IMG/VR virus record: IMGVR_UViG_3300044776_000065 | Location: 1-35,325 of that record | DNA from: a virus | Length of the DNA stretch: 35,325 bases | Strand: one strand, 5' to 3' | Shown here: one piece after another, positions 1,495-27,840 of the stretch | Layout: each line of letters starts with the position of its first letter | Numbering within the stretch: position 1 is the first letter of the stretch | Program-made: the position numbers and the translations under genes | Notes under the pieces: model-generated | Database searches by the model: none | Told to the model about the DNA's origin: nothing | The model's input: the letters and a program-made list of their open reading frames with translations, nothing else

Positions 1495-4103
1495 GCTCTG
1501 CCGCGCTTTAAGCCGAAGGACTTTTCCATCGCTTGAGAAACGGATCCCACTCCATCCCGGATGTCGCCACCGATTTCAGTCTTTACACGCCGGATTACAA
1601 CTTCAATCACTTTCTCCCGCCCGTCCTGCTTCTCGGTCACACGGGATTGCGCGTCCGTATAGTTGTTGATCACAACCCGCACGGGCTGCCCGCCCAGCTG
1701 CCCGTTGGGAATGATGCTGCCCAGCACAGCGGGAGCAAACAACTCGGGCCCTTTCTCTCCCACCAAGTAAGTGCTCCCCGGAGCCACAGGGCCGCCCATT
1801 GCCTTGGGCCCCGCAAAGACTAGCTCAACTGATTTAATGGAGGAGACAATGGACGCCGTGGCTGCCATCACGGAGGCCGCAGCCACTAAGTTAGAAGGCC
1901 AGGGCAAGCTAAAGGCGCCCGCAATGCCCTGGGCGATCTTCACTGTAGCGTCGGCGATGGCAAAAGCTTTGGAGGCAGCGAACATAACTTTATACATCGC
2001 CGACTGTTCGCCTCCCAAGTCCTTGGCCATCGAAGACATGCTTTCAAATATTGACTGCCCGGCTTGCAGCGCTACCGAGGCTTGCTTGAGTTGCAACTGA
2101 ATGAGGCGGTCCGTATAGGCTTTAAGAATTTCCTCCTTGGACTTTTGGATTCCTGTGAACTGGGCTATTTCTTTGTCGCCCATTGCTTTGAGCATTTCCA
2201 AGCGGCTCTCAATGTCTTTCTGCTCCTCTTTGATCGCCGTGGTCCCGGCATCAAATTCACTACCCATCCCCAAGCCCACTTTCATTTTGGGCTGCATCAT
2301 CTTGTCGATGAGCTTCTGGTCCACACCTAGCTTCTTCAGCAGCGCTTGCTCATCCTTGCCGGCCAGTCCCATCTTCTCCAGCGGAGACTCGGCGTGGCCC
2401 ATCAGCTTCATGACATCCATGAAGGCTTGAGATGCACGCTTTGCTTTGGCAGCGGCTGCGTCGGTCGCGGCCGCTGCGTCGTCCATTGCTTTCTTAAAGC
2501 CATCTACCGTATCAGTGACTTTCTCCAGCCCCTTCTTTGCATCCGCCGCCCCTTTAACAACCGGAACGAAAAGTTTGATGTGGGTATCCAGCAGCTTGTT
2601 CCAGTGCGCCGCTAGCTCTTCAGCCGTTTCCGCAACGGATCCCGCTATGTTGTTCAGCGGCCCTTGCACTTGCCCAGCCATGTCTTTGAGCGCGATGTTG
2701 GCGCCCAAGATGTCTCCATGCAACAAAGCGAAGGCTACCCGCGGGCCTGCGCTAGCTGCGGATAGAGCAACTTTTAGCTTATCCACAGCGCTTAGCAGCT
2801 CGTGGACGATAAGCGTTGAAATGGATTTAAGCCCAAACCAAATCACAGCTAGCGCTTGCCCCAAATACTTGGCCGCTTCCACCAGCGACGTGAAGGCAGC
2901 GGTGACGGATCCCGACTCCTTTTCCGCCGCGGCCAGTGACTTAGCTGTCTCCTTCAGCATGTCATTTACGGCGAGCAGTGCGGGCGCTAGCCCTTCGCCC
3001 ACTGTGATCAGCAAGTCCTTGAAATTATTCCAAGTTATGATGAGCTGGGAAGAAACGGTTTTGTAGCGGATCTCCGCCTCCTTCGCTAGCGCCGTGTTTT
3101 CCTTCCATGCCTTTGTCCCTTCGGCCGTGGCTCTAGTAAACAGGCCGCTGGCTCCCGCTGCCCGGGTCAGCACGTCCGCCACGTTGCGCCCGTCCAATCC
3201 CAACCGGTCCAGCACACTAAAAATCTCTTGCCCGGCATCGTTGCTTTGCTTCAGCCCAGTCAAGAACAGAGCCAGCGTTCCCACCACATCCTTTTTGAAA
3301 GAGGCTTGGAAGCGCTCCGCTGATACGCCGGCCACTTCCGCAAAGTCCGCTAGCTTTTCATTCCCGGTGGCAACGGACTTGGCCATCTCCCGCATTACAA
3401 AGCTAATTGCTGATCCACCTTGCTCCGCATTGATCTTAACGGAGCTGAGCGCTGTGGCCACACCCAGGATTTCGGCCTGCGTAAGCTTGAGCATGGACCC
3501 GGCGCCAGCAATGCGCAGCGCCATAGAAGTGATATCCTGCTCCGTGCCGTTGAACTTATTTCCCAACGCTACCAGGGCGGACCCCAGCCGGTCGAAGTCC
3601 TTGGCGGACATTTCCGTGATGGTAGCTAAACCCGCTAGGTCCGAGGCGGCTTGCTGGCTGGATAAGTTCGTCGCTACTCCCAAGTCCACCATTGTCCTAG
3701 TGAACTTCTCCATGTCTTCCACTTTGATCCCCAGCTGTCCCGCCGCTTCCGCTACGCTGTTGATTTCATTTACGTTGACCGGAATATTCTTGCTCATCTC
3801 CCGAAGCGTAGTGGAAAGCTTGGCAAACTCAGCCCCCGTAGCGTCCACCGTCTTGCGCACCCCAGTAAAGGAGTCCTCGAACTTGGAGAATTCCCGCAGG
3901 GCCACGGCGCCCATAGCTACTAGGGCGCCGGTAGCGCCCAGCGACAGGAGCTTAACGGAAGCGAGCATTCGGGCGGACCCGCCTCCCACAGCCAGCTCCG
4001 CTTCGTGCATCCCTTTGACGAGCTGGGAGGAGTCGGCTGTGAGCTTGACAAACAAGCTGCCCAAGCTCCCGCCCGCAGCCATGCCTAGCAAATCTCCAAT
4101 CAT
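1491..4103 (-). CDS. Tail tape measure protein
   Basis: An 870-residue protein, by far the longest in the tail block, starting immediately after the chaperone T-frame stop (TAA then ATG). Residues roughly 75-335 match the TP901-type tape-measure core: FEDSFTGVRKTVDATGAEF, then VNEINSVAEAAGQLGIK, then NLSSQQAASDLAGLATI. Hydrophobic stretches occur near residues 48-70, about 415-435, and about 725-765 (IAQGIAGAFSLPW onward), as expected for a protein released into the host membrane. The C-terminal part contains GGPVAPGSTYLVGEKGPELF, a common tape-measure tail motif. The length suggests a tail of very roughly 130 nm using the usual 1.5 angstrom per residue. It acts as the ruler inside the tail tube and aids DNA passage. 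Confidence 0.95.
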   Translation of the reverse strand: MIGDLLGMAAGGSLGSLFVKLTADSSQLVKGMHEAELAVGGGSARMLASVKLLSLGATGALVAMGAVALREFSKFEDSFTGVRKTVDATGAEFAKLSTTLREMSKNIPVNVNEINSVAEAAGQLGIKVEDMEKFTRTMVDLGVATNLSSQQAASDLAGLATITEMSAKDFDRLGSALVALGNKFNGTEQDITSMALRIAGAGSMLKLTQAEILGVATALSSVKINAEQGGSAISFVMREMAKSVATGNEKLADFAEVAGVSAERFQASFKKDVVGTLALFLTGLKQSNDAGQEIFSVLDRLGLDGRNVADVLTRAAGASGLFTRATAEGTKAWKENTALAKEAEIRYKTVSSQLIITWNNFKDLLITVGEGLAPALLAVNDMLKETAKSLAAAEKESGSVTAAFTSLVEAAKYLGQALAVIWFGLKSISTLIVHELLSAVDKLKVALSAASAGPRVAFALLHGDILGANIALKDMAGQVQGPLNNIAGSVAETAEELAAHWNKLLDTHIKLFVPVVKGAADAKKGLEKVTDTVDGFKKAMDDAAAATDAAAAKAKRASQAFMDVMKLMGHAESPLEKMGLAGKDEQALLKKLGVDQKLIDKMMQPKMKVGLGMGSEFDAGTTAIKEEQKDIESRLEMLKAMGDKEIAQFTGIQKSKEEILKAYTDRLIQLQLKQASVALQAGQSIFESMSSMAKDLGGEQSAMYKVMFAASKAFAIADATVKIAQGIAGAFSLPWPSNLVAAASVMAATASIVSSIKSVELVFAGPKAMGGPVAPGSTYLVGEKGPELFAPAVLGSIIPNGQLGGQPVRVVINNYTDAQSRVTEKQDGREKVIEVVIRRVKTEIGGDIRDGVGSVSQAMEKSFGLKRGRA

Positions 4104-6330: not shown

Positions 6331-7839
6331 TTACGTTAGCTCTGCTTTCATACCGACGTAGCTGGTGAATGATTGCTTGGCTGTTTTCACGCGCCAATAA
6401 ATGAAGCCCTTGCCGGTTGGAGTAAACGTCACTCCGAGCTTGTAACGGCGGGCGGCTGTAAACACGGCACTCCCGTCCGTGATCGCGTCACCATCGGCTG
6501 CTGTTGAATATCCTCCTGGTTCACTGCCCGAAGAGGTCCCTGCCGTTGTGCAAAAGAAAATACGCCCTGGATTGGAAGCAACTTTTCTTACATCGGTTAG
6601 AGCGTAAGCGGTTGAATTTGCCCTTGCCGTTACCAATGAATCCCAAGCGTTGCTCGTGTCAGTATCCTGATTGGCTGGCGTAGCCATAATATTAGCCGCA
6701 CGGTCTTGGATAAACACTCCCAACGGATACCCTGAAGTTCCGGGATAGAGCACTTCAACCCACTGATCGGCGTCTGTAATGGCAGCAGGCCCTCCGCTGT
6801 TGATCGCTGAGATATTGAGCGTGATCGCGCTAGTAGACTCGTTCCAAATCGCCTGCCAGCCGGTCATCAGAGAGGAAAAGAATTGGGTGTTAGCCGTTGT
6901 GACGACCTTGCGACAGAAGGGCGTTGTGCCGTCTGATGCTCCGCCCGTGCGGATGATGGTGGTCTCTTGGGTGATCGTCCCTTGGTAAGTCTGCTTGTAG
7001 TAAACGTAATTCGTATTGCCGCTGTCGCAGTTGACACACTCGACTTCAGTTCCTCCTTGGCCAGCGACGGCGCCCGTAGTGATGGCGACGGACGCGCCGA
7101 GTTTGCAGTCTTGAAAATAATAGGAGTTGAAACTGTTCTGCCCGACGTCCACCAAACTCTTGCCAGATCCCAAAGCTGAAAGGTCAACGCCGATGATTGT
7201 TGCGGGCGCGTTGTTAGCCGCTGCCGGTGTGTAGAAAAGAATCGTCGGAACCGATCCGAGAGTGGCGGATGGCGTATTCGTCCAAAAGAGTCGGGCACGG
7301 TTTGCAATCCCCTGTCCGACTGCCGCGAAAGAGACGGTGGTGTTGACTAGCTCTACAAGCTGATCGTCCGAGAGAACGCTAGACACTCCGATAAGTATCC
7401 GCGAGGCCGCCGCTGTATTAACCAGCCTCAATGAGCAGGTATCGAATTTGACAAAACCGGGAACAGTCGCTGAAGCCAGAGGATTAAGATTGGCCGCCGA
7501 TGACCCTGTCCCAGCGTTGAATATGATGCCGTAAAAGTAAACGAATCCCCCGATCACTATCGAAAAGGCGCCTGTGGTTGTGATCGTGGCTGTCGAAGCC
7601 AAGGCGGTTGGCGGAGCAGCCCCGTCATTGACGCACAAAACTCGGCACGGTGCAGCCGCCGTTCCAGGCGAAGTCAAGGTCATGGACGAAGCTTGTGTTT
7701 CAGCGTGCTGATGCGATACCCAAAAAGTATCGCCTGCGGCTCTAGCCGCCAGCGCCGCTGCTAGCGTCGTGTAAGCGTTAGCCCAACTAGAGCCGTCTGC
7801 TGCTCCAGCTGCGCCCGACTTCACATAGTAATTCGACAT
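6331..7839 (-). CDS. Beta-rich virion-associated protein of unknown function
   Basis: A 502-residue protein starting MSNYYVKSGAAGAADGSSWANAY. This 'YYV-x-x-G-x-G-DG-x-SW-x-NA' opening is typical of right-handed parallel beta-helix proteins. The middle is rich in Thr, Ala, Ser and Gly with short beta repeats. The end carries GRIFFCTTAGTSSGSEP, a pattern common in phage carbohydrate-binding or fibre-associated modules, then RRYKLGVTFTPTGKGF. No catalytic acid triad can be assigned by eye. It lies 1 bp from the tail terminator gene and shares its operon. It may be a head-tail or tail-surface decoration, or an accessory fibre; the function is not established. Confidence 0.6.
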   Translation of the reverse strand: MSNYYVKSGAAGAADGSSWANAYTTLAAALAARAAGDTFWVSHQHAETQASSMTLTSPGTAAAPCRVLCVNDGAAPPTALASTATITTTGAFSIVIGGFVYFYGIIFNAGTGSSAANLNPLASATVPGFVKFDTCSLRLVNTAAASRILIGVSSVLSDDQLVELVNTTVSFAAVGQGIANRARLFWTNTPSATLGSVPTILFYTPAAANNAPATIIGVDLSALGSGKSLVDVGQNSFNSYYFQDCKLGASVAITTGAVAGQGGTEVECVNCDSGNTNYVYYKQTYQGTITQETTIIRTGGASDGTTPFCRKVVTTANTQFFSSLMTGWQAIWNESTSAITLNISAINSGGPAAITDADQWVEVLYPGTSGYPLGVFIQDRAANIMATPANQDTDTSNAWDSLVTARANSTAYALTDVRKVASNPGRIFFCTTAGTSSGSEPGGYSTAADGDAITDGSAVFTAARRYKLGVTFTPTGKGFIYWRVKTAKQSFTSYVGMKAELT

Positions 7840-8316: not shown

Positions 8317-8706
8317 TTAGGTGGGGAGTGTGACAATTAAACTTGTGACATCGATTTCTGCCCCAGCTTGGATAGACACTGAATTCAGGTTTAGGTCCGC
8401 TCCCGACGTGCCGACGGATCCGTCTAGGATCGGAGTAGTCGTATCAGACTTGAGCAACCGGAACCAGCCCGCCGTTCCGGTATCGTCCGCTACTGTATCG
8501 GCCGTGATAGCAGCGGCAGTAATGACGCCAGCCGCTGCGGCTCCAAAGGCCGTAGCATTCATCGTGAGCGTTCCTAGCAGGGTGCCGCTCGCCGCCGTCT
8601 CCGGCGTGGCGGGCTGGGAGCCAGTGTAGATTTTGAGCAAGCCGCTATTCGCCAATGCAGCGAGTGCGTTCAGTTCGACATTGCGGGTATTGATGGAAAC
8701 TTTCAT
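8317..8706 (-). CDS. Hypothetical phage protein (SGLLKIYTGSQPATPETA family)
   Basis: A 129-residue protein with ANSGLLKIYTGSQPATPE near the start and VGTSGADLNLNSVSIQAGA near the end. Both motifs recur in many phage genomes in a family of unknown function often found near tail and neck genes. It is Ala/Thr/Gly-rich, beta-like and lacks Cys. No Shine-Dalgarno sequence is evident before ATG 8706; the leader is AT-rich (CTTCTAAATT). A minor structural protein is likely but unproven. Confidence 0.65.
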   Translation of the reverse strand: MKVSINTRNVELNALAALANSGLLKIYTGSQPATPETAASGTLLGTLTMNATAFGAAAAGVITAAAITADTVADDTGTAGWFRLLKSDTTTPILDGSVGTSGADLNLNSVSIQAGAEIDVTSLIVTLPT

Positions 8707-9697: not shown

Positions 9698-10038
9698 TAA
9701 AGGTAGGCCGTGTAAAGGTTTTCCGTGTTCTTCAAGTTAGGCAGCACGTCAAAGCGCTCAATCTGCTTGGAACCGGTGTGGGCTATGGGGTCCTCCGGCG
9801 TGTCGGACTCCATTGCACCCAGCGCGAGGCGATCCCCCATTTGCATAGCCCGGTCCACGTAGACGACAGCTCGGGATAACTGCTTCTCCCCCTTGTCCGA
9901 CAGATACTCCTGCCCCACTTCCTCCCAGCGGCAGTCCACTTCTACCGGCGCATCAAAAGTCGGATTGCCATAGCGGTCTAACGCGCCCTGCACCCACCAA
10001 ATCGCTTTCTGCCTCCGCATTCTTTTAATAATACTCAC
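9697..10038 (-). CDS. Head-tail joining / head closure protein
   Basis: A 113-residue protein starting MSIIKRMRRQKAIWWVQ. The core is VDCRWEEVGQEYLSDKG, AVVYVDRAMQMGDRLALG and then QIERFDVLPNLKNTENLYTAYL. The pattern 'V-x-C-R-W-E...G-x-E...A-x-V-Y-V...GD-x-L' is typical of small neck proteins that close the head and join the tail. It overlaps the upstream DUF115-like gene by 4 bp (ATGA at 10035-10038). Gene order (connector, closure, tail completion) supports the role. Confidence 0.75.
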   Translation of the reverse strand: MSIIKRMRRQKAIWWVQGALDRYGNPTFDAPVEVDCRWEEVGQEYLSDKGEKQLSRAVVYVDRAMQMGDRLALGAMESDTPEDPIAHTGSKQIERFDVLPNLKNTENLYTAYL

Positions 10039-10670
10039 TTCAGCACCTCATCCAGCTCAGCAAAGGTCCGGCAGGGAAACACGTCCAGCTTAGACGTGCC
10101 GTTAGTGACGTTGTAAACCCAAACATCTGGGCGGATGGATCCGAGGCTTTTCGAAAGGCACTTAAATCCTTTTTGGAAGCGGACAAAAGCCACGTCCGCC
10201 GTAGGTTTGTTCCGGTGCGCGTGCCAGTGGCTTTGCCCCTCGGGAGTGCGGCACAAATCAAAGCCCAGCAAATAAATGTGAGCGGCTCCCAGCCGCACTG
10301 CTAAGTTGATGGCCGCTGCCCCCGTGGAGTAGTTCCACGCCAGCACGGGCCCCTTCTCCTGCAAGCCATCCCGGACCCGGGCCATCTTCAAAAGCCAGGC
10401 TAAGCTCACTTGCTCTAGGGTGGGAGCACAGGAGACTACTTTGCCGGGGAACTTGGCTAGGTCCCATTTGTTGCGCTGGAACCAGGAAGCATCTCCGAAC
10501 AAGCAATACTGAACCACTTCCGGGCCCAGCCGAAAAGCATCATTGCAGCCAATCGTATTCTTCCCGTTCAGCTTCGCCCAAGCAAACTGATTCAGGGAAG
10601 AACCGCCTCCTATTATGAAAGCGTTAGATCCCGAGGACTTCCACTCTTCTGTTGGAATCCAAAGCGGCAT
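10035..10670 (-). CDS. DUF115 / MptE-like glycan-associated protein
   Basis: A 211-residue cytosolic protein with no signal peptide. Residues about 17-27 read AFIIGGGSSLN, the glycine-rich nucleotide-binding loop typical of DUF115/MptE-like proteins. NGKNTIGCNDAFRLGP and YCLFGDASWF follow, then STGAAAINLAVRLGAAHIYLLGFDLC. These elements are shared with phage proteins related to sialyltransferase-like and 6-hydroxymethylpterin pyrophosphokinase-like folds, often found in surface-glycan loci. The exact reaction is unknown. It is inserted among neck genes and overlaps the head-closure gene, so it is expressed late with structural proteins. It probably belongs with the glycan cassette at 15332-22576. 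Confidence 0.7.
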   Translation of the reverse strand: MPLWIPTEEWKSSGSNAFIIGGGSSLNQFAWAKLNGKNTIGCNDAFRLGPEVVQYCLFGDASWFQRNKWDLAKFPGKVVSCAPTLEQVSLAWLLKMARVRDGLQEKGPVLAWNYSTGAAAINLAVRLGAAHIYLLGFDLCRTPEGQSHWHAHRNKPTADVAFVRFQKGFKCLSKSLGSIRPDVWVYNVTNGTSKLDVFPCRTFAELDEVLK

Positions 10671-10679
10671 TATCCAGAT

Positions 10680-11441
10680 TCACTTGACCTGCAGCGAAAG
10701 CAAGTATTGCCAATGCCTGTTCTTTGTTGAATTGCCTACTGTTGGAGTGACTTGGAGATAGGGAGTCGCAATCGGATTCCAGGTGAGTGTAGCTTTGCCT
10801 TGCGCATCACACTGAACTCCATTGAGCTTTACCAGATCCGTTACATAGTTCAGTGGAACAAATCCGTAGCCCATCTGAGCATCCCCCGGGAACTCGGAAC
10901 CGGGCCACCAATCCGGAAAATACCAAGCGATAATAGTAGCGGTCATCGTATAGGTTCCGTTGGTTGCGCCCGTTGCTTTGAAACGAATGTAACCCGACGC
11001 TGTTCGGGAATTCGTTGTGCCGTTGTATAACATCCCTGAATAATTAGCCATCTCCCGAGTCCAGATTTTGAGGTCCGTGGACGTGCAAGCCAGACAAGGG
11101 TTATTAGTGGATTGAGGAACACCATCCTTGTAAACGACTGTCCAGGCATTAGTGAGGCTGGTATTGCTCCACGTGTTTTGGGTCATCCACAACTGATCTC
11201 CCCTTTCACACGGCGGATGCCAATACTTCGTAGACCAGTCTTCCCGGGGTAGCGCTGGAACCCCTCTAATAAAGCGCTGGTTGCGCTCTGTATAGTCTAC
11301 ACACCCATAACCGTTAAGGTATGAAGTTTTTCCGTAGAACTGATAGTTGTAAATCTCTTGAGAGATAGAAAGCCCGTTGGCCAGAACGGGAAGAGAGCCA
11401 AGGACAAACACAGACACAAACACAAACACATTCTTAATCAT
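10680..11441 (-). CDS. Sec-secreted protein of unknown function
   Basis: A 253-residue protein with a clear signal peptide: a short basic start (MIKN), a hydrophobic core (VFVFVSVFVLGSLPV) and a likely cut after VLA at about residue 21. The mature part is rich in Tyr, Trp, Asn and Thr and has several Cys (for example NPCLACTSTD), suggesting a folded, disulfide-bonded extracytoplasmic beta protein. I recognise no domain. Signal peptides are rare among neck-region genes, so this is a 'moron'-like insertion whose product would act in the host periplasm or at the cell surface (exclusion, receptor masking or lysis are possibilities). A 12-bp gap separates it from the upstream connector gene. Confidence 0.7.
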   Translation of the reverse strand: MIKNVFVFVSVFVLGSLPVLANGLSISQEIYNYQFYGKTSYLNGYGCVDYTERNQRFIRGVPALPREDWSTKYWHPPCERGDQLWMTQNTWSNTSLTNAWTVVYKDGVPQSTNNPCLACTSTDLKIWTREMANYSGMLYNGTTNSRTASGYIRFKATGATNGTYTMTATIIAWYFPDWWPGSEFPGDAQMGYGFVPLNYVTDLVKLNGVQCDAQGKATLTWNPIATPYLQVTPTVGNSTKNRHWQYLLSLQVK

Positions 11442-11453
11442 AATCTTTTTTGT

Positions 11454-11843
11454 TTATTCAGTTTGAGACGTCCCCAGCCAAACCACCGAGGGCGTGCGGG
11501 AGCGGGCCGGGGCAGCGCTGGACAACGCCAGCAAGCCGCCCGCCGTATCCAGCATCATCGCTTGCTGCCCGTAGCGGGTTAGGGCTAGGTTCAAGTCCAC
11601 CTTAGACTCAAAGTTTTCCCCCACGGAACCGGCTTTCTCCTGCGTCGTCCGCGGATCGCGGATCGCGTAGAAGTGGGCGGACAACCAGCGCTCGATAAGC
11701 TCCAAGCGCGTGACGGAGTAGCTCGCGATAGCGCAAACTTCCGTCACGAGCTCGGACGCCGTTTCGATAAAGGGAGTGAGGTCGATGTTACTATCGACCT
11801 CAATTATCCCAGCGACCAGCTGCGCAGTAGTGCGGACAGGCAT
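11454..11843 (-). CDS. Head-tail connector (adaptor) protein
   Basis: A 129-residue, mostly helical protein: IEVDSNIDLTPFIETASEL, LELIERWLSAHFYAIRD, then RTTQEKAGSVGENFES. This fits small adaptor proteins that bind beneath the portal, in which an N-terminal helix bundle ends with a 'lie-down' W-L-x-A-H motif. The gene order capsid, small protein, adaptor, closure, tail completion supports it. The ATG is directly abutted by three tandem GATTGAAAC units and no Shine-Dalgarno sequence is visible, so translation may depend on the unusual leader described at 11844-11898. Confidence 0.7.
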   Translation of the reverse strand: MPVRTTAQLVAGIIEVDSNIDLTPFIETASELVTEVCAIASYSVTRLELIERWLSAHFYAIRDPRTTQEKAGSVGENFESKVDLNLALTRYGQQAMMLDTAGGLLALSSAAPARSRTPSVVWLGTSQTE

Positions 11844-11898
11844 GTTTCAATCGTTTCAATCGTTTCAATCCGCGCCCCGGCCTTGCGACCGGGACGAC
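11844..11898 (-). repeat. Solitary CRISPR-repeat-like element with two extra terminal 9-mers
   Basis: The intergenic gap contains a 37-nt unit (11898 down to 11862 on the minus strand). Its parts are GT, a 10-nt arm CGTCCCGGTC, a GCAA loop, a 10-nt arm GGCCGGGGCG, and an 11-nt tail CGGATTGAAAC. As RNA of the transcribed strand the arms pair over all 10 positions (two G.U pairs) with a GNRA tetraloop; on the other strand two positions mismatch. The GGATTGAAAC ending, GTCG opening, central stem and 37-nt length are those of CRISPR repeats of the ATTGAAAC class. Two more GATTGAAAC copies follow (11861-11844), reaching the ATG at 11843. No spacer array or cas gene is visible. Function is inferred only. 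Confidence 0.75.
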
Positions 11899-11900
11899 CC

Positions 11901-12155
11901 TTACTTGTCCCGCATCGTCCGGGAGCCCGGCTGGGCTTTGGGCGCTGTGCGATGCTTGCTGCCCGCACCCTCTTCACCCCGGTCATCCTCGTCGTCCCAG
12001 CCCGCGGGAGTCTTCTCCGAAACCGGCGCTGCCACCTTCTCAAACTTCTGCGGGAACAGGGCCACTAGATCGTGCGGGGACTCTACGACGTCGCCCTCCT
12101 TGTATTTCTTCCCGTCCTGGAAATGAATCCCGTTAAGCAACTTGAATGAATTCAT
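11901..12155 (-). CDS. Small head protein downstream of capsid (unknown function)
   Basis: An 84-residue protein with good ribosome-binding purines (GAAGGAAAGG) before ATG 12155. The start FKLLNGIHFQDGKKYKEGDVV and then LVALFPQKFEKV form a beta hairpin followed by a short helix. This is a pattern common in tiny phage proteins encoded right after the major capsid gene. The second half is disordered and highly charged (WDDEDDRGEEGAGSKHR). Role unknown; possibly a head-completion or capsid-binding peptide. Confidence 0.65.
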   Translation of the reverse strand: MNSFKLLNGIHFQDGKKYKEGDVVESPHDLVALFPQKFEKVAAPVSEKTPAGWDDEDDRGEEGAGSKHRTAPKAQPGSRTMRDK

Positions 12156-12186
12156 AAAAACTTTTCCTTTCCTTCAGTAAACCGAA

Positions 12187-13242
12187 TTAGACTGCCGCTC
12201 CGTGAACGATGCCCGTGTTGTGATTGTGGTCCGACCGAATTTGCGGGACCATGATGCACATCACTTTGTAGTTAAGGCGCATTCCACCCAGTGTTTCCCA
12301 CTGGATCGTAGTGATGTCCATGCCAATGACGAGCCGAATCACGTCGCTAGTTTGCTGCACGAGCAGCATCGTAAACCCAGCACCCAGGTAATCAGCCGTC
12401 CGAATGTCCGTGATGCCGCTAATTTGCATGAGGCGCTGGCGGACCGTGTTGTCGCCTTTGAGCGGCGAGTAATCGTTGTCCATGTAAAGATCCCACGCCG
12501 GTGAAACGTAAAGGATCCAAGGGCCGTGGTGGAAGTTGTCCACGCTGTCTTGCCGCATCGCCAGGATCTGCCCCAGCAACACAGAAGGAACCCAACCCCC
12601 AGCAGTCGGCGCTGTGAGCACGCGGCTAATGCGATAGGGAAAGTTGGTCAGCCCGTAAACGGTGCCGCCACCGTAGCTGAAGGTGGGCGAGACTCCGAGC
12701 ACAAGCTTCTCCGCCTCTTCCGCCACGCGCCGCGCAGCTAGTTGGCCCATCGTTGTATCCAGCCCGGCACCGGAGTTGCGGGACGTAGCAATCTGGCGGG
12801 CGCTGAAGAAGAAGTCCTTGTGAATCACCGGGAGTGGCAATCCAGTCAAGTCGTATTCCGGCCGGTCAGACTCGCCCTGGCGAATCGGATCCATGCTGAT
12901 GGTAGCCGGTGTGATATCACCCACAGTTTCCGTTTCAAGGAAAGTCTTCCCCATGCCGTTGGGCAAGTTGAAAGTTAGTCCCGATCCGCGCAAGTCAGCG
13001 ACTACGCGCAGGCGCTCTTTAGCTGCGGCCGTGATCGACTCGTCCAGTATCTTCCATTCCTCGTGCCGCAGGGTCGCCGCGTTGCCCACGGGCACTGCGG
13101 TCATCTTCCCATTCACGTTGCGGGCGATATAGCTCCGCCCGTCCTTGCCCTGCCAAGGGCGCAGGGACGCGATATCAAATCCATTGTGGAGCAGGGTAGT
13201 CGCCACGCTGCCGTGCGCTTGCCCGTTTAGAATAATATCCAT
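12187..13242 (-). CDS. Major capsid protein (HK97-fold)
   Basis: A 351-residue protein without a propeptide-like long coil. It has features of encapsulin/Eps15-like HK97-fold capsids: IARNVNGKMTAVPVGNAAT near the start, LPVIHKDFFFSARQIATS (E-loop/P-domain region), then LVLGVSPTFSYGGGTVYGL and GPWILYVSPAWDLYMDNDY. The latter two are the classic 'G-x-Y-G-L-x-N-x-P' and 'Y-V-S-P-x-W' segments. It is located after the protease-scaffold and decoration genes. The ATG is preceded by an A/T-rich leader (CTTAAAAAT) with no clear Shine-Dalgarno sequence, unusual for the most highly expressed phage gene. Confidence 0.9.
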   Translation of the reverse strand: MDIILNGQAHGSVATTLLHNGFDIASLRPWQGKDGRSYIARNVNGKMTAVPVGNAATLRHEEWKILDESITAAAKERLRVVADLRGSGLTFNLPNGMGKTFLETETVGDITPATISMDPIRQGESDRPEYDLTGLPLPVIHKDFFFSARQIATSRNSGAGLDTTMGQLAARRVAEEAEKLVLGVSPTFSYGGGTVYGLTNFPYRISRVLTAPTAGGWVPSVLLGQILAMRQDSVDNFHHGPWILYVSPAWDLYMDNDYSPLKGDNTVRQRLMQISGITDIRTADYLGAGFTMLLVQQTSDVIRLVIGMDITTIQWETLGGMRLNYKVMCIMVPQIRSDHNHNTGIVHGAAV

Positions 13243-15331: not shown

Positions 15332-16129
15332 TTAGCTCCGGACCCGCTCCAGCAAGAGCGCCCGGTTCGCTGTCATAAACTCCAGGGAGCGTGGTGAGCG
15401 GGGGTGCCACTTGTGCAGCAAGCAAAGCCAGTAATTCTTTTGGAGCAGTTCCCATGCTTTGCGGCGGCTGATTTCATCCCGGCAGCGCCAAGTCACGTTA
15501 GTGAGAGTCACGTTGCCGGGCAGTGGCTGGCGCTGAAGCTGGTAGCGCTCCAGCTCAAAGATTTGAAAGTAGTCTTCCCAGCCATACCCTTTGAAACGGG
15601 AGTCGCACCCGCCCAAATCCAAGTAGTCCTGGCGGCGGCAAATGAAATTAGTCCCGGCGGGGCGGAGATAGGAGTTGCTGTAGAAACCCGGGTTTTCCAC
15701 AATCTCCTTATAGCTGCGCTCGGAAAGCGCCTTTGTTTCCAGCAGTTGGGAGCACTTGCGATTGAGGTAAAGCATCCCGCCGTTAAACCACTCCCGCGGG
15801 GCCGCGCGGCCCAGGAGCGGGAGCAGTTCTTCGAAGTAGCGGGGGTTGGGCAGCGTGTCCACATCCAGCTTCATTATCCACTCGGACGTGGCGAGCCTAG
15901 CGCCCTCGTTGTGCCAATGCCCAATGCTTACGGACGTGGGACCCGGCGCTTCGATGATCCACAGGTCCGGATAAGCAGCAAGCTCCGCGGGCGCCTTCTC
16001 CCCCACAAAAAAGAGCAAGTGATTCACCGTCCAGTGTGTCAAGCTGGTGCGGGCCGCGTGCAGCGCCTTCACCCAAACCCGCAGCGCTTCCAGCCTGTTC
16101 CAGACAGGAGTAATGGTTGTAAGAATCAT
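15332..16129 (-). CDS. Glycosyltransferase, galactosyltransferase-C-terminal (GT7C-like)
   Basis: The start was set at ATG 16129 (265 residues), because upstream sequence overlaps the MazG-like gene and the protein proper begins MILTTITPVWNRLEAL. It has a GT-A fold: an N-terminal Rossmann-like strand, the metal-binding DxD in WIMKLDVDTLPNPRYFEEL, and further on LGGCDSRFKGYGWEDYF. The last is the GG-x-D-x-x-x-x-G-x-G-x-E-D signature of Glyco_transf_7C domains that bind the sugar acceptor and donor. It transfers a hexose (probably from a nucleotide sugar) to an unknown acceptor. It closes the glycan cassette next to the protease gene. Confidence 0.85.
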   Translation of the reverse strand: MILTTITPVWNRLEALRVWVKALHAARTSLTHWTVNHLLFFVGEKAPAELAAYPDLWIIEAPGPTSVSIGHWHNEGARLATSEWIMKLDVDTLPNPRYFEELLPLLGRAAPREWFNGGMLYLNRKCSQLLETKALSERSYKEIVENPGFYSNSYLRPAGTNFICRRQDYLDLGGCDSRFKGYGWEDYFQIFELERYQLQRQPLPGNVTLTNVTWRCRDEISRRKAWELLQKNYWLCLLHKWHPRSPRSLEFMTANRALLLERVRS

Positions 16130-16142
16130 TCCGCTTCCGGCG

Positions 16143-16565
16143 TCAGCATTGGCCGTCCGCACCCTCCCGGGCCACTCCCACCTTCCATGCTGCCGGATCT
16201 CCTGACTGGACACCCACCCGCTTGTCCGCACGTCCTTGCGCCTGCGCGTCAGAGTATTTCAATTCTTCGTAGCGCTTGCTCAGCTTAGCAATGTTAGCAT
16301 CCAGCGTCATCTGCCGAGTGATATTTAGCACTTTCCGCAAGCCCTCCAAGTAGAATTCTATATCGCCTAGCTCCTCAATGATGTTCTCCCGGTCGTAGGG
16401 CTTGCGGTAAATAACGTGCTTCTTAATCGCGTCAAACAACTCGCCCGACTCCCCGCAAAGACAGGAGCTCATATGCCAGACGTGAGCATCCTCGGAAGTC
16501 AGGCTGGATAGGATTTGTTCCCCGGGCTTGCACAGGGCCGCTACAAGTTCAGGATGCGTTATCAT
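16143..16565 (-). CDS. MazG-like nucleotide pyrophosphohydrolase
   Basis: A 140-residue all-helical protein. Residues 39-42 (ESGE) and 64-68 (EELGD) give the E-x-x-E ... E-x-x-D metal-binding signature of MazG/all-alpha NTP pyrophosphatases, with a helix IEFYLEGLRKVLNITR and LSKRYEE following as in the family. Such enzymes hydrolyse nucleoside triphosphates (or related alarmones/modified nucleotides) to monophosphates; phage versions are proposed to tune host nucleotide or ppGpp pools. It overlaps the epimerase by 4 bp (16562-16565), so it is expressed as part of the cassette. The C-terminal 35 residues are charged and not part of the fold. Confidence 0.8.
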   Translation of the reverse strand: MITHPELVAALCKPGEQILSSLTSEDAHVWHMSSCLCGESGELFDAIKKHVIYRKPYDRENIIEELGDIEFYLEGLRKVLNITRQMTLDANIAKLSKRYEELKYSDAQAQGRADKRVGVQSGDPAAWKVGVAREGADGQC

Positions 16566-17578
16566 TTTTCCATCTGTTTTTCAATCCACTGATAGGTGTG
16601 TTTGAGCCCCTGCTCCAACGGAGTCAGCGGCTCCCAGCCATAAAGTTTTTGAATCATAGTGTTGTCGCTGCTCCGGCACTGCACACCTCTAGGCGCTAAT
16701 GGATCGTAATGTCGCAATAATCGAACCCCAGCAATCCGCTCCACCAATGTGACTAAATGGTTCACTGTCACTTGCTCCGCACTCCCCAAGTTGATCGGAT
16801 CCAAGTAGGATCCATCCATAATGAGATGGATACCTTTGATGCAGTCCCCTATCCACATAAAGCTCCGAGTCTGCTTGCCGTCACCCCAGATTTCAATCTC
16901 CGAATCCATTTGCTTCTGAAGCTTAGCTAAGATTACCTTGCGGCAGATAGCCGCGGGCGCCTTCTCCCGCCCGCCCCGCCACGTGCCGTAGGGCCCATAG
17001 ACGTTGTGAAGCCGAGCCACACGAGTAGACAGCCCAAAGTCTTCGGAGAAGTGGCGGCACATCCTTTCGCTGAACAGCTTCTCCCAACCGTAACCGTCCT
17101 CCGGACTAGCGGGGTAGGCGTCACTCTCTTTCAAACCGCAATCCAAAATGCTCCGCTGCTTGTCCGCCGCATAGACGCAAGCAGAGGAGGCGTAGAAGTA
17201 TCGTTTCACCTTAGCGTCCCGCGCAGCCATCAGCAAGTGCGTATTGATTAGAACCGATAACATGCAGAGCCCTTTGTTCCTTTCAATGAAACCCATCCCG
17301 CCCATGTCCGCAGCTAAGTTGTAAACCACGTCCATCCCATCCACGGCCTGGTCGCAATGGGACTTGCGCGACAGGTCCAAGGTGTAGTTCTCAGCGTCCG
17401 CAAAAGACTGGTGCCAGTCCCGCACGTATTTGATATCTACAGCCCGCACGTGAACGCCCGGCTGCCCCAGGAAAGACTTCACTAGGTGCCCGCCGATGAA
17501 GCCGCCCGCTCCACACACAAGAATTCTCATAGATATACATTCCTTAAACATTTTCTCCGGCCACGGAGCAGTTTTCAT
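16562..17578 (-). CDS. GDP-mannose 3',5'-epimerase-like SDR enzyme
   Basis: An extended SDR protein. With start ATG 17578 (338 residues) it has AGGAG 4 bases upstream; ATG 17530 (MRILVCGAGGFIGG) is an alternative. Motifs: NAD-binding GAGGFIGG (23-30), NLAADMGGMGF (87-97), SSACVY (131-136, catalytic-type Cys), YGWEK (163-167, Y-x-x-x-K), YGPYGTWRGGREKAPAA (194-210) and WGDGKQTRSF (231-240). These match plant GDP-mannose 3',5'-epimerase closely, block for block. That enzyme converts GDP-D-mannose to GDP-L-galactose (and some GDP-L-gulose). In the phage it would supply an L-sugar donor, most likely to the glycosyltransferases of this cassette. Confidence 0.9.
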   Translation of the reverse strand: MKTAPWPEKMFKECISMRILVCGAGGFIGGHLVKSFLGQPGVHVRAVDIKYVRDWHQSFADAENYTLDLSRKSHCDQAVDGMDVVYNLAADMGGMGFIERNKGLCMLSVLINTHLLMAARDAKVKRYFYASSACVYAADKQRSILDCGLKESDAYPASPEDGYGWEKLFSERMCRHFSEDFGLSTRVARLHNVYGPYGTWRGGREKAPAAICRKVILAKLQKQMDSEIEIWGDGKQTRSFMWIGDCIKGIHLIMDGSYLDPINLGSAEQVTVNHLVTLVERIAGVRLLRHYDPLAPRGVQCRSSDNTMIQKLYGWEPLTPLEQGLKHTYQWIEKQMEK

Positions 17579-17585
17579 CAGTCTC

Positions 17586-18215
17586 CTAGCAGCGGGTGTA
17601 GAACGCATCACCCCACCCGTTGCCGGTCATTTTGACTTCACGCTTTTCAAATCCTTTGAACCCTAAGTAAGAGTTGATCACCGTAGCGGACGGGCAGCCT
17701 TTGTAAAGCTCCCGCTCGTTCACTTCTATGTAGACTTGGTTGAACTGGTTTAATAGCAAGCCCATGCCCTCCAACGCCAGCAGCTCAGCTCCCTGCAAGT
17801 CCACATTCAAAAACCAGCCCGGGCCCACAGTGAGCCCTTCCCGCTTCAGCAACGTATCCACCCGCACCGTAATCATCGGAATCTGCTGCACGTATTTCAC
17901 AGTCGGATGCTCAATAGCGTGGGTCCCAAACTCCAGGAAGCTGGAGGACTGCCCCTCATTGGAAGCCACGTTGAAATCCACCCGCTGCCCGTCCGTATCA
18001 CTTAAGCACCCCAGCAACGCCACAGATCCGGGGTATTTAGCAACGTTCTTTGCGAGGACCGTGTAGACTTTGGGGAGCGCTTCCACCCAAACCACCCGTC
18101 CTACCCGTTGGCGGAGATAAAAGGGCGCCTCCTGCCCGGTATTTCCACCCAGGTGGAGCACGCCCGGAGGGTGCAGCCCATACTTCTTGCACAAGTATTC
18201 GAAGGGAATCAACAT
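17586..18215 (-). CDS. FkbM-family SAM methyltransferase
   Basis: A 209-residue protein. Residues about 18-28 (GVLHLGGNTGQ) are the SAM-binding glycine motif, though the usual acidic residue before it is replaced by His-Leu. VVWVEALPKVYTVLAKNV carries the acidic residue after strand 2, and FLNVDLQGAELLALEGM is the FkbM-type 'D-x-x-G-x-E' motif. YIEVNERELYKGCPS follows. Members methylate hydroxyls on sugars or polyketides. Here the sugar of the phage-made glycan is the likely substrate. It is separated by only 3 bp from the neighbouring methyltransferase and by 7 bp from the epimerase. Confidence 0.85.
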   Translation of the reverse strand: MLIPFEYLCKKYGLHPPGVLHLGGNTGQEAPFYLRQRVGRVVWVEALPKVYTVLAKNVAKYPGSVALLGCLSDTDGQRVDFNVASNEGQSSSFLEFGTHAIEHPTVKYVQQIPMITVRVDTLLKREGLTVGPGWFLNVDLQGAELLALEGMGLLLNQFNQVYIEVNERELYKGCPSATVINSYLGFKGFEKREVKMTGNGWGDAFYTRC

Positions 18216-21114: not shown

Positions 21115-21873
21115 TCATTGAAACCAAGAAAGGCGCTCCCAAGTTTCAGGAACTATGTCACCCATGTATAAGTTGGCCCAGCCCGGAGTCAGCCAATGCG
21201 TAGGAATCACAACGCGCTTTAGGGGATTTCTATTCAGCCAGGCTTGCCACCAAGAAAACGTAGACGCGGAACAAATATTGTGCTCGCACCAGGACCCTTC
21301 CACTAAGTCCTGGACTTCATTGCTGCCGCTAGCAAAGCCACAGTCCTTCCGGTTCCCAAACATCTGCTGGCACCACGGAATATCGTCACTGAAGAACTTG
21401 AACTGCATCCCGGGGAACTTGGCCATCGCCGTCTCATACCATTGCTGCGTGACCGTAGGGTGTTTGAAGAGCCCGGCCCGCCGTATCGTCAAGTAGTCAC
21501 CGCGGCGGACGTGGACGGAGACTTGGGGCTCTAGGTGCCACGCAAAGCCCAGCTTCTCAATCACCAAATCCCGATAGTCTTTGAAATACTTTTCGCTCTG
21601 CCAGTAGCCGTCCAGCACAATGTTCCCGCTGCGCCACTCTTCGTGGAAAGGGATCCGCTGATAGCCGTGCCCTTGCTCCTGCGCCTTGCGCAGCATTAAC
21701 TTCGGGTCCCACTTGGGGTTGACGAGGTGCGGCAGGTAGACCGGATTGTCTTTAGCGCTCCGCGTTGTGCTGGGCACCGTAAAGTCCAGCCCGTGTTGCC
21801 AAGCGTAAGCCATCGTGGCGGCCGCCTGGAAAAGGAAGTTCCCCATTCTGCCACAATTCTCGAAAGTCACCAT
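21115..21873 (-). CDS. GT11 family glycosyltransferase (alpha-1,2-fucosyltransferase-like)
   Basis: A 252-residue protein with all GT11 landmarks: CGRMGNFLFQAAATMAYA at the N-terminus (family 'G-x-x-G-N-x-x-F-Q'), VLDGYWQSEKYF (87-97), VSVHVRRGDY (118-127, the H-x-R-R-G-D-Y donor-binding motif), FKFFSDDIPWC (158-168) and HNICSASTFSWWQAWLN (198-214). GT11 enzymes transfer L-fucose from GDP-L-fucose. GDP-L-galactose differs only by the 6-OH, and several fucosyltransferases accept it. Because a GDP-mannose 3',5'-epimerase lies in the same cassette and no fucose synthase is seen in the window, GDP-L-galactose is a plausible donor (inference). Confidence 0.9.
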   Translation of the reverse strand: MVTFENCGRMGNFLFQAAATMAYAWQHGLDFTVPSTTRSAKDNPVYLPHLVNPKWDPKLMLRKAQEQGHGYQRIPFHEEWRSGNIVLDGYWQSEKYFKDYRDLVIEKLGFAWHLEPQVSVHVRRGDYLTIRRAGLFKHPTVTQQWYETAMAKFPGMQFKFFSDDIPWCQQMFGNRKDCGFASGSNEVQDLVEGSWCEHNICSASTFSWWQAWLNRNPLKRVVIPTHWLTPGWANLYMGDIVPETWERLSWFQ

Positions 21874-26247: not shown

Positions 26248-27840
26248 TTAGCGCCGGGCTGGGGGAAAGGGCTTAGCAGCAGGTTTAGGCTTGCCGTTAG
26301 CACCCGCAGGGACAAGGGGAAGTCCATTGGGTCCTAACGGAATCTCGGGCTCGGGATTGGCCCGGCCCAGGAGTCCGCCCTCCTCTTCCCCAATCTGCTC
26401 CTCCGCCGCATCCACGACGGCTCGAGCTTCCTCGTCGTCCATCCCTAAAATTAGCGTTAAGTAAAGGAAGGGCGGCATCAGGGTATCCACGCCGGACTGC
26501 ACGTATTTGGCCAACGCATCGGTGCGCTTGCTGGCCACGTCCGCTTGCTCCAAATCGCTGGGAGAATTCAAATCCGGCCAGTCCACACACAAGCTGTTCT
26601 CCTCCGCTAAGGGCGGGAGCACGCCCACCGCCACCAAGCGTTCAATAAAGGGACGCACAATGAACGGGTTCACATAGTCCAGACGGCGTCGGGTCAGCCG
26701 GCGATTCCACGTCTTCGTGTCTTGCTCGCTAGCGAGCTGCGCCGCCTCTGACCCGACGAAAACCCTCCAGGGCACTCCCAGCGCCGCGGCAATGGCCCTC
26801 AGCTGGACTTCCACGTGCGGGCGCGGATCGGCAATCTCCACCGCCAGTGACTTTACTTGCAAGCCCACGGTGGCGATGTAGCGCTGGAGCCCGTTCATGT
26901 AGTCCTCCATCTGCTTCTTCGTCGCGTCCACGTCCAGCTCAATGTCTTCCCCGTCCTTGCTGGGAGCCGTCTCCAAGCTGTAACCAGGAAATCCGCCCTT
27001 CCAAAACATCTCCCCGGACCCGCCCGTAATCTTGCGCAAGTCGAGCAGGCGGTTGAACACCCGCTCCATCCGCGGGATGCCAAAGATTTCGGAGTTGGCC
27101 CGATTGTCCGCGATGTGAATGATGCGGGACCAATGCACGTCTACTGATTTAGTAATGGAGCTTTCCAGGGACGTATCCGCAAACTGAATTCGATAAGAGA
27201 GCGGCTGTCCGTAGCGGGGATTGGTGAAGTCCGTTTCCAAAGCTTTCACGGTGACTAGTGATTCATCCAAAGGGCGCAGGAACAGCAGCTGGCGCTCCTG
27301 CGCCGAGCCCTCGCCGCCCTCGTCTGCCTCCAGCATCATCCCAGACACGGGCAGGTCCAGCGGCTCCCCGTCGTCCAGCCCAATCAACACCACTCCAAAG
27401 CGGCCTATGCCGGACAGGATGTCAGCCCGGCACAAGTAGGAGAAGATGGACATTCTCTTATTCAGCTCGAGCCACGCCGTCTCAAACTCAGTCTCCTCCT
27501 CGTCTTCGGTTTCATACACGTCGGGGTCCTGGCTCCACGTCTCTTCCGGGATCACTGATACAACCCGGGCAGCCATATCGCCCCGCAGCCAAAGTTGGTA
27601 ATAGTCCTGGATGGAGAGTGATTTCGGATAGCCACACTCGGAGTCTAAATCACGGCGCGGATCCACGAGCTTGCGCAGCCACTCCTGGCGGCTGGTAAAG
27701 GCGTTGCGGACTATTTCGAAGAGGGTGTGTTTTTGTTTTGCAGTCACGCCGGCAAACCTACCCGCCTCCGCTGGGCGTGCAAGGATTTTAAGTGGAGTGC
27801 GGGCCTCAGGTAAAACGCTAACCTTGGGCACAACGCCCAC
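26248..27840 (-). CDS. Portal protein (DUF1073 family)
   Basis: A protein of about 530 residues. The start is the GTG at 27840 behind AAGGGG, or the GTG two codons earlier at 27846. Characteristic segments are YPKSLSIQDYYQLWLRGDMA near the start, VVSVIPEETWSQDPDVYE, DILSGIGRFGVVLIGLDDG, IIHIADNRANSEIFGIPRM and IAAALGVPWRVFVGSEAAQL; these fit DUF1073 portal proteins. It forms the dodecameric DNA gate, binds terminase, and lies directly upstream of MuF (2 bp gap) as usual. The C-terminus is Pro/Gly-rich. I do not see the 2H phosphoesterase motifs of Acb1-type fusions. Confidence 0.88.
   Translation of the reverse strand: MGVVPKVSVLPEARTPLKILARPAEAGRFAGVTAKQKHTLFEIVRNAFTSRQEWLRKLVDPRRDLDSECGYPKSLSIQDYYQLWLRGDMAARVVSVIPEETWSQDPDVYETEDEEETEFETAWLELNKRMSIFSYLCRADILSGIGRFGVVLIGLDDGEPLDLPVSGMMLEADEGGEGSAQERQLLFLRPLDESLVTVKALETDFTNPRYGQPLSYRIQFADTSLESSITKSVDVHWSRIIHIADNRANSEIFGIPRMERVFNRLLDLRKITGGSGEMFWKGGFPGYSLETAPSKDGEDIELDVDATKKQMEDYMNGLQRYIATVGLQVKSLAVEIADPRPHVEVQLRAIAAALGVPWRVFVGSEAAQLASEQDTKTWNRRLTRRRLDYVNPFIVRPFIERLVAVGVLPPLAEENSLCVDWPDLNSPSDLEQADVASKRTDALAKYVQSGVDTLMPPFLYLTLILGMDDEEARAVVDAAEEQIGEEEGGLLGRANPEPEIPLGPNGLPLVPAGANGKPKPAAKPFPPARR

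Follow-up and report, generated by a model that had tools for sequence, protein, structure and literature searches.

A lone type I-C-like CRISPR repeat ahead of a phage gene, and comparable phage elements that suggest an immune decoy or a borrowed leader

Why would a phage carry, directly ahead of one of its genes, a lone hairpin with the appearance of a CRISPR repeat? The locus lies in a virus record of 35,325 bases (the whole stretch analysed, referred to here as the window), whose genes encode terminase, portal, head, capsid-like and tape-measure proteins. The hairpin belongs to a 37-nt unit inside this virion-gene cluster, with virion proteins as neighbours. The gap that holds it, from the stop codon of the ORF at 11901-12155 (minus strand) to the ATG at 11843, is exactly 11844-11900 and contains no Shine-Dalgarno sequence (Table 1). 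On the minus strand, the order from stop to start is TAA, GG, GTCGTCCCGGTCGCAAGGCCGGGGCGCGGATTGAAAC (11898-11862), GATTGAAAC, GATTGAAAC and ATG, with the end of the handle occurring three times in a row ahead of the start codon.

Table 1. Features at and around the repeat unit of the window.
Feature	Position	Strand	Description
Major capsid-like protein	12187..13242	-	DUF6260 / encapsulin-related
Upstream ORF	11901..12155	-	84 aa, without family; stop codon 2 bases ahead of the 37-nt unit
37-nt solitary type I-C-like CRISPR repeat unit	11862..11898	-	stem of 10 bp with two U·G pairs, GCAA loop, handle CGGATTGAAAC
Handle CGGATTGAAAC	11862..11872	-	11 nt, the length of the 5' handle left by Cas5d; putative cleavage here
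(GATTGAAAC)2	11844..11861	-	handle end repeated twice more in tandem; abuts the start codon directly
Downstream gene	11454..11843	-	129 aa, conserved phage protein of the virion cluster, 48 related contigs

The stem, its two U·G pairs, the GCAA loop and the 11-nt tail are all as a sequence-only reading of this DNA had described them, as are the two extra GATTGAAAC copies that run into the ATG in place of a Shine-Dalgarno sequence. The same reading held that the stem favours the transcribed minus strand, which is borne out by folding: in its transcribed form the 37-nt unit reaches -20.7 kcal/mol (z -3.2, matched by 1 of 200 shuffles). The opposite strand, where a poorer fold is expected from the two U·G pairs, reaches no more than -11.1 kcal/mol (z -0.6). 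Under a first-order chance model, 0.028 copies of the 11-mer CGGATTGAAAC are expected in the window, and about 1e-5 copies that abut a hairpin of at least 10 bp; for the tandem GATTGAAACGATTGAAAC, the chance expectation is 2e-6. The window has a single ATTGAAA site with such a hairpin, and it has no second repeat at regular spacing, so that the unit does not form a CRISPR array. The claim that it is solitary thus stands, and units of this kind are a known source of RNA anti-CRISPRs (Racrs), including a type I-C example (PMC10651486). The two 9-nt handle copies adjoin the unit, and the flank filter of SRUFinder might reject units of this sort. A consensus scan for sigma-70 promoters found none in 11700-12400; other promoter types lie outside such a scan, and read-through from upstream is possible.

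Could the resemblance to a CRISPR repeat be accidental, in a hairpin of some common phage type, for example a terminator or a mobile palindrome? The minus strand of the window does contain 13 hairpins of at least 10 bp. However, there is no T-run, a consensus scan found no intrinsic terminator at the element, no Rfam family matches it, and the expectation for hairpin plus handle is the low value given above. The same handle and architecture are moreover present in real type I-C arrays, and these array matches largely refute the reading, which we consider highly improbable.

The array matches come from two scans of 84,980 cellular genomes. The first, with the element core (a 36-nt pattern with five free positions), found no match. 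The second, with GGCGCGGATTGAAAC followed by RAWYRAA, found seven places, five of which are in CRISPR arrays (L226, L227, L230, L231 and L232), while one (L229) is without a comparable hairpin. The repeat of the L226 array is CATCGCCCGGCCTCACGGCCGGGCGCGGATTGAAAC, and the genes beside the L226 and L227 arrays encode Cas1c (TIGR03640, E about 1e-145) and Cas4. Since arrays with the identical GGCGCGGATTGAAAC 3' half adjoin Cas1c and Cas4, the class is type I-C. The CRISPR-repeat architecture seen in the sequence-only reading is therefore upheld; as for the match to known repeats that it called for, the 84,980 genomes gave none for the core and one at the level of class, through the 3' half. The reading had also named Cas6 or Cas5d as the enzyme that would cut the repeat, and here Cas5d fits and Cas6 does not, because in type I-C it is Cas5d that cuts the repeat, leaving an 11-nt 5' handle (PMC5965380). 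Like a type I-C repeat processed by Cas5d, the window element has a TCG...CG stem base, a hairpin and an 11-nt handle that ends in GGATTGAAAC. It differs in being a single copy of 37 nt with a 10-bp stem, most arrays seen here having repeats of 32-33 nt; arrays with 9-bp stems do exist (L226, L227 and L232). These sequence comparisons confirm that the window element is a solitary repeat unit, that it is type I-C-like, and that it forms part of a phage gene's leader.

A solitary GTCGCTCCCCGCGCCGGGGCGCGGATTGAAACAAACAAAC hairpin precedes cbiD in a Deltaproteobacteria MAG (L228, 5200-5320), in a cobalamin gene context rather than a phage one; that genome has no other GCGGATTGAAAC. A leader in general use among hosts was considered and rejected; the extended pattern is nearly absent outside arrays (seven matches in 84,980 genomes, five of them in arrays).

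The gene behind the leader encodes a 129-aa protein of PHROG 37884, a family of unassigned function. Its structural model is of moderate quality (pLDDT 78), and the best fold matches, which are weak, are the SaPI1 neck and a Haloferax tailed virus 1 virion protein. From its position, the moderate model and these weak matches, the protein is probably a neck or adaptor component. Among the ten proteins around the 37-nt unit, none matches an anti-CRISPR model. A blastn search with 4 kb of DNA surrounding the element gave no match, and hence no close annotated phage. Two imperfect 18-nt tandem repeats (AGAGCCAAGGACAAACAC / AGACACAAACACAAACAC) occupy 11394-11429 of the window, close to where the next gene (10680-11441) begins. 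Genes for a glycosyltransferase, a sialyltransferase-like protein and an NAD-dependent epimerase (10035-10670, 15332-17611 and 21115-21873) stand amid the virion genes.

Solitary units of the same shape are widespread among viruses. A scan of viral contigs with the pattern GTCGC...GCGTGGATTGAAAC, whose counts are samples and not totals, gave at least 112 solitary units and at least 78 array members among the matches listed. Within these matches, 109 of the 112 solitary units are distinct in sequence, and lengths are 27-39 nt for solitary units and 31-37 nt for array members. In the phylum of L226 (Thiobacillus), the type I-C pattern is found in 10 of 399 genomes, in nine of the ten as arrays. 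The I-C repeat shape is thus common singly in viral contigs and almost always arrayed in the 399 bacterial genomes. Named isolate phages gave no convincing type I-C unit, the best matches being unannotated faecal phage contigs.

Some of the viral units share the layout of the window element. In unrelated phages, the hairpin is followed by GGATTGAAAC, then by (GATTGAAAC)n or (AAAC)n, and then by a codirectional start codon. Copies of GATTGAAAC follow comparable hairpins in L245 (three copies) and in L118, L287, L307 and L311 (two each), and (AAAC)n runs follow those of L317, L328, L335, L339, L352, L358, L369, L384, L405, L411, L429 and others; for hairpins extended in either way, the ATG is mostly within about 35 nt downstream. 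Extensions were counted in sets unselected for the sequence 3' of the handle (113 solitary units and 69 array members, among the matches listed). Here the handle is followed by AAAC in 13 of the 113 solitary units and by GATTGAAA in three (16/113 together), as against 0/69 array members. Placement was assessed from the distance to an ATG, with the opposite side and the array members as controls, a longest-ORF map being too crude in high-GC contigs; the criterion was a codirectional ATG within 40 nt of the unit that opens an ORF 60 codons or more in length. Among the matches listed, such an ATG is found for 38 of the 113 solitary units, compared with 19 on the opposite side and one of the 69 array members, and the discordant units are split 31 versus 12 between the same and the opposite side (p = 0.005). 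The other 75 of the 113 listed have no codirectional ATG within 40 nt, so that a subset of the viral I-C-like units, and not all of them, are gene leaders. A control with type I-E, which is a small set, gave 36 solitary units, eight codirectional versus five divergent, with no handle extension seen.

Behind such units stand, among others, genes for a tape measure (L118), the large subunit of a terminase (L036), a head protein (L097), a lysin associated with the tail (L483) and an endolysin (L465); the majority of the rest fall in no family. Single phages may hold several units. In G004 (IMGVR 3300027896_000075), hairpin-CGGATTGAAAC elements occur at 6818 (minus strand) and at 27076, 35052 and 36649 (plus strand) with entirely different stems, and two of them are 0-1 nt ahead of an ATG. 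A search of G004 that allows three handle mismatches finds hairpin-adjacent copies at 10-11/11 with four different stems, and a few noise hits at 8-9/11. In G009 (IMGVR 3300034358_000028), units are found at 8461, 8514, 8534 and 13765 (plus strand); a cluster before a small gene begins with two identical hairpins and continues with an incomplete copy that carries three GATTGAAAC, and a further repeat-like unit precedes the tape measure gene.

This distribution bears on a reading in which the element is a cis-acting leader, its hairpin and unstructured tail of handle repeats controlling mRNA stability, processing or translation, perhaps by way of Cas5d or some other protein that binds RNA, with immune inhibition not being the purpose. 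The favoured same-strand placement before start codons (38 versus 19, above) argues for such a role, as do the (AAAC)n or (GATTGAAAC)n spacers that reach the ATG in many unrelated phages, the several stems within one phage (G004 and G009), the hairpin and handle kept before related genes despite different stems, the structural or lysis function of some downstream genes, and the one solitary copy before cbiD in a bacterial MAG. However, leader position is no general requirement, given the 75 listed units that lie away from any such ATG, and the shape tracks the I-C repeat closely, for which a generic leader hairpin would have no need. We hold the cis-acting role to be the main alternative, though a tentative one, and one that sequence does not separate from a decoy.

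Comparable elements change in a way that keeps the stem paired. Three pairs of related loci retain the hairpin and GGATTGAAAC while their stems differ. For L405 and L411, whose flanks are 91-92% identical, the stems CGCCCCC-GUGC-GGGGGCG and CGCCCCU-AUGU-AGGGGUG differ by one two-sided change and one G-C to G-U. For L023 and L113 (flanks about 77%), there is one two-sided change of C-G to G-C and one change of G-U to G-C, and for L020 and L307 (upstream flank 73%), wholly different stems stand ahead of similar proteins (MNTNKL... and MNPNKL...). The window locus itself is different: among the 48 contigs that encode the 129-aa protein, the element is present in only two, both 97-99.9% identical to the window, and it is absent from all relatives at 38-66%. 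As judged from these sequences, the element is young in the window's own lineage. Persistence in relatives, to which the sequence-only reading had looked, thus fails at the window locus and holds for comparable elements at related loci elsewhere.

Another reading is that the element is a neutral relic, a CRISPR repeat caught by chance between two genes, its 9-nt copies having arisen by replication slippage. Its restriction to one lineage of the window phage is in keeping with this, as is the lack of a match to its core in 84,980 cellular genomes; hairpins are also missing from some (GATTGAAAC)n runs, for example that of L306, with about six copies. Against it, the design recurs in unrelated phages, the stem of the window unit is intact and strong, and the stem changes elsewhere keep pairing, unlike those of a relic. 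We regard the relic as improbable.

Taken with the layout, the comparable elements in many phages suggest either an immune-system decoy or a leader borrowed to control a gene. From sequence, the function with the best support is that of a decoy, and we would give it an even chance. In its favour are the architecture and its low chance expectation, the identical 3' half in arrays beside Cas1c and Cas4, the many solitary units in viruses as against arrays in bacteria, the handle extensions and same-strand ATG placement of these units, and the stem changes at related loci. In the proposed mechanism, the 37-nt unit would be transcribed within the virion-gene mRNA and fold into an I-C repeat hairpin with an 11-nt handle, and the hairpin would bind the host enzyme that cuts I-C repeats, Cas5d, and perhaps further subunits of Cascade. 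A cut by Cas5d at the stem base, 3' of the stem, would release the hairpin and leave an mRNA that starts with a crRNA-like handle (CGGAUUGAAAC), which the tandem GATTGAAAC copies would multiply. Cas5d binding, cleavage and immune inhibition by the window element are what we infer. Type I-C Racrs inhibit CRISPR-Cas experimentally (PMC10651486). For 83% of the solitary repeat units (SRUs) in that study, the host carries the matching subtype. In RacrIF1, it is the stem side that inhibits, and the handle is dispensable and not inhibitory alone, so that this precedent does not explain the multiplied handle. Also against a decoy are the several stems per phage in G004 and G009, which mimicry of one host repeat would not need, the downstream structural, packaging and lysis genes, whose timing may be late for an element that inhibits CRISPR, the lack of a matching host repeat in 84,980 genomes, and the absence of the element from distant relatives of the window locus.

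The nearest known relative of such a decoy is RacrIC1 (Camara-Wilpert et al. 2023, PMC10651486), which is likewise a single repeat-like hairpin of class I-C, viral and intergenic, with no adjacent cas genes seen. RacrIC1 lies 11 nt downstream of acrIC5 on one transcript, whereas the window element is the leader of a virion gene; Racrs tend to lie near acr genes, an enrichment and not an obligation (PMC10651486). The window element further differs from RacrIC1 in its tripled handle end, in having no acr neighbour detected and in having no matching repeat found. CRISPR-regulated toxin-antitoxin RNAs (CreTA) and other Cas-directed regulatory RNAs are similar in that a repeat-like unit outside an array regulates a gene with Cas proteins. 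They differ in that the known examples accompany cas loci.

The solitary repeat is a known kind of element, and Racrs have been described as small non-coding RNAs; in the literature searched, no description was found of the tandem-handle leader that recurs across phages. More speculatively, and in our view rather unlikely, widespread phage mRNA leaders of the I-C-repeat type, with a hairpin and a multiplied handle that runs up to the start codon, might tie virion-gene expression to Cas5d or Cascade, being cut or bound so as to titrate the machinery and change translation. If mimics do act within virion-gene leaders, immune decoy and gene control would be joined in one element, and the dose of decoy would track the mRNA level. 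The (AAAC)n and (GATTGAAAC)n handle extensions, together with the pairing-preserving stem changes, provide a concrete set of elements for testing. Judging from its stated filters, SRUFinder as published might filter out the tandem-handle variants.

Some units and runs have further features. In L501 (minus strand, about 5724), a solitary I-C repeat lies between identical 34-bp copies, the left one abutting and the right one 1 nt off, and shorter flank repeats are present in L480 (15 bp), L465 (14 bp) and L484 (9 bp). The flank repeats at these four units could mark how units insert; insertion with target-site duplication is not claimed, the overall distribution being like that of controls. The hairpin-free run of about six tandem GATTGAAAC in L306 spans 3047-3110, and similar runs are found in L294 and L304.
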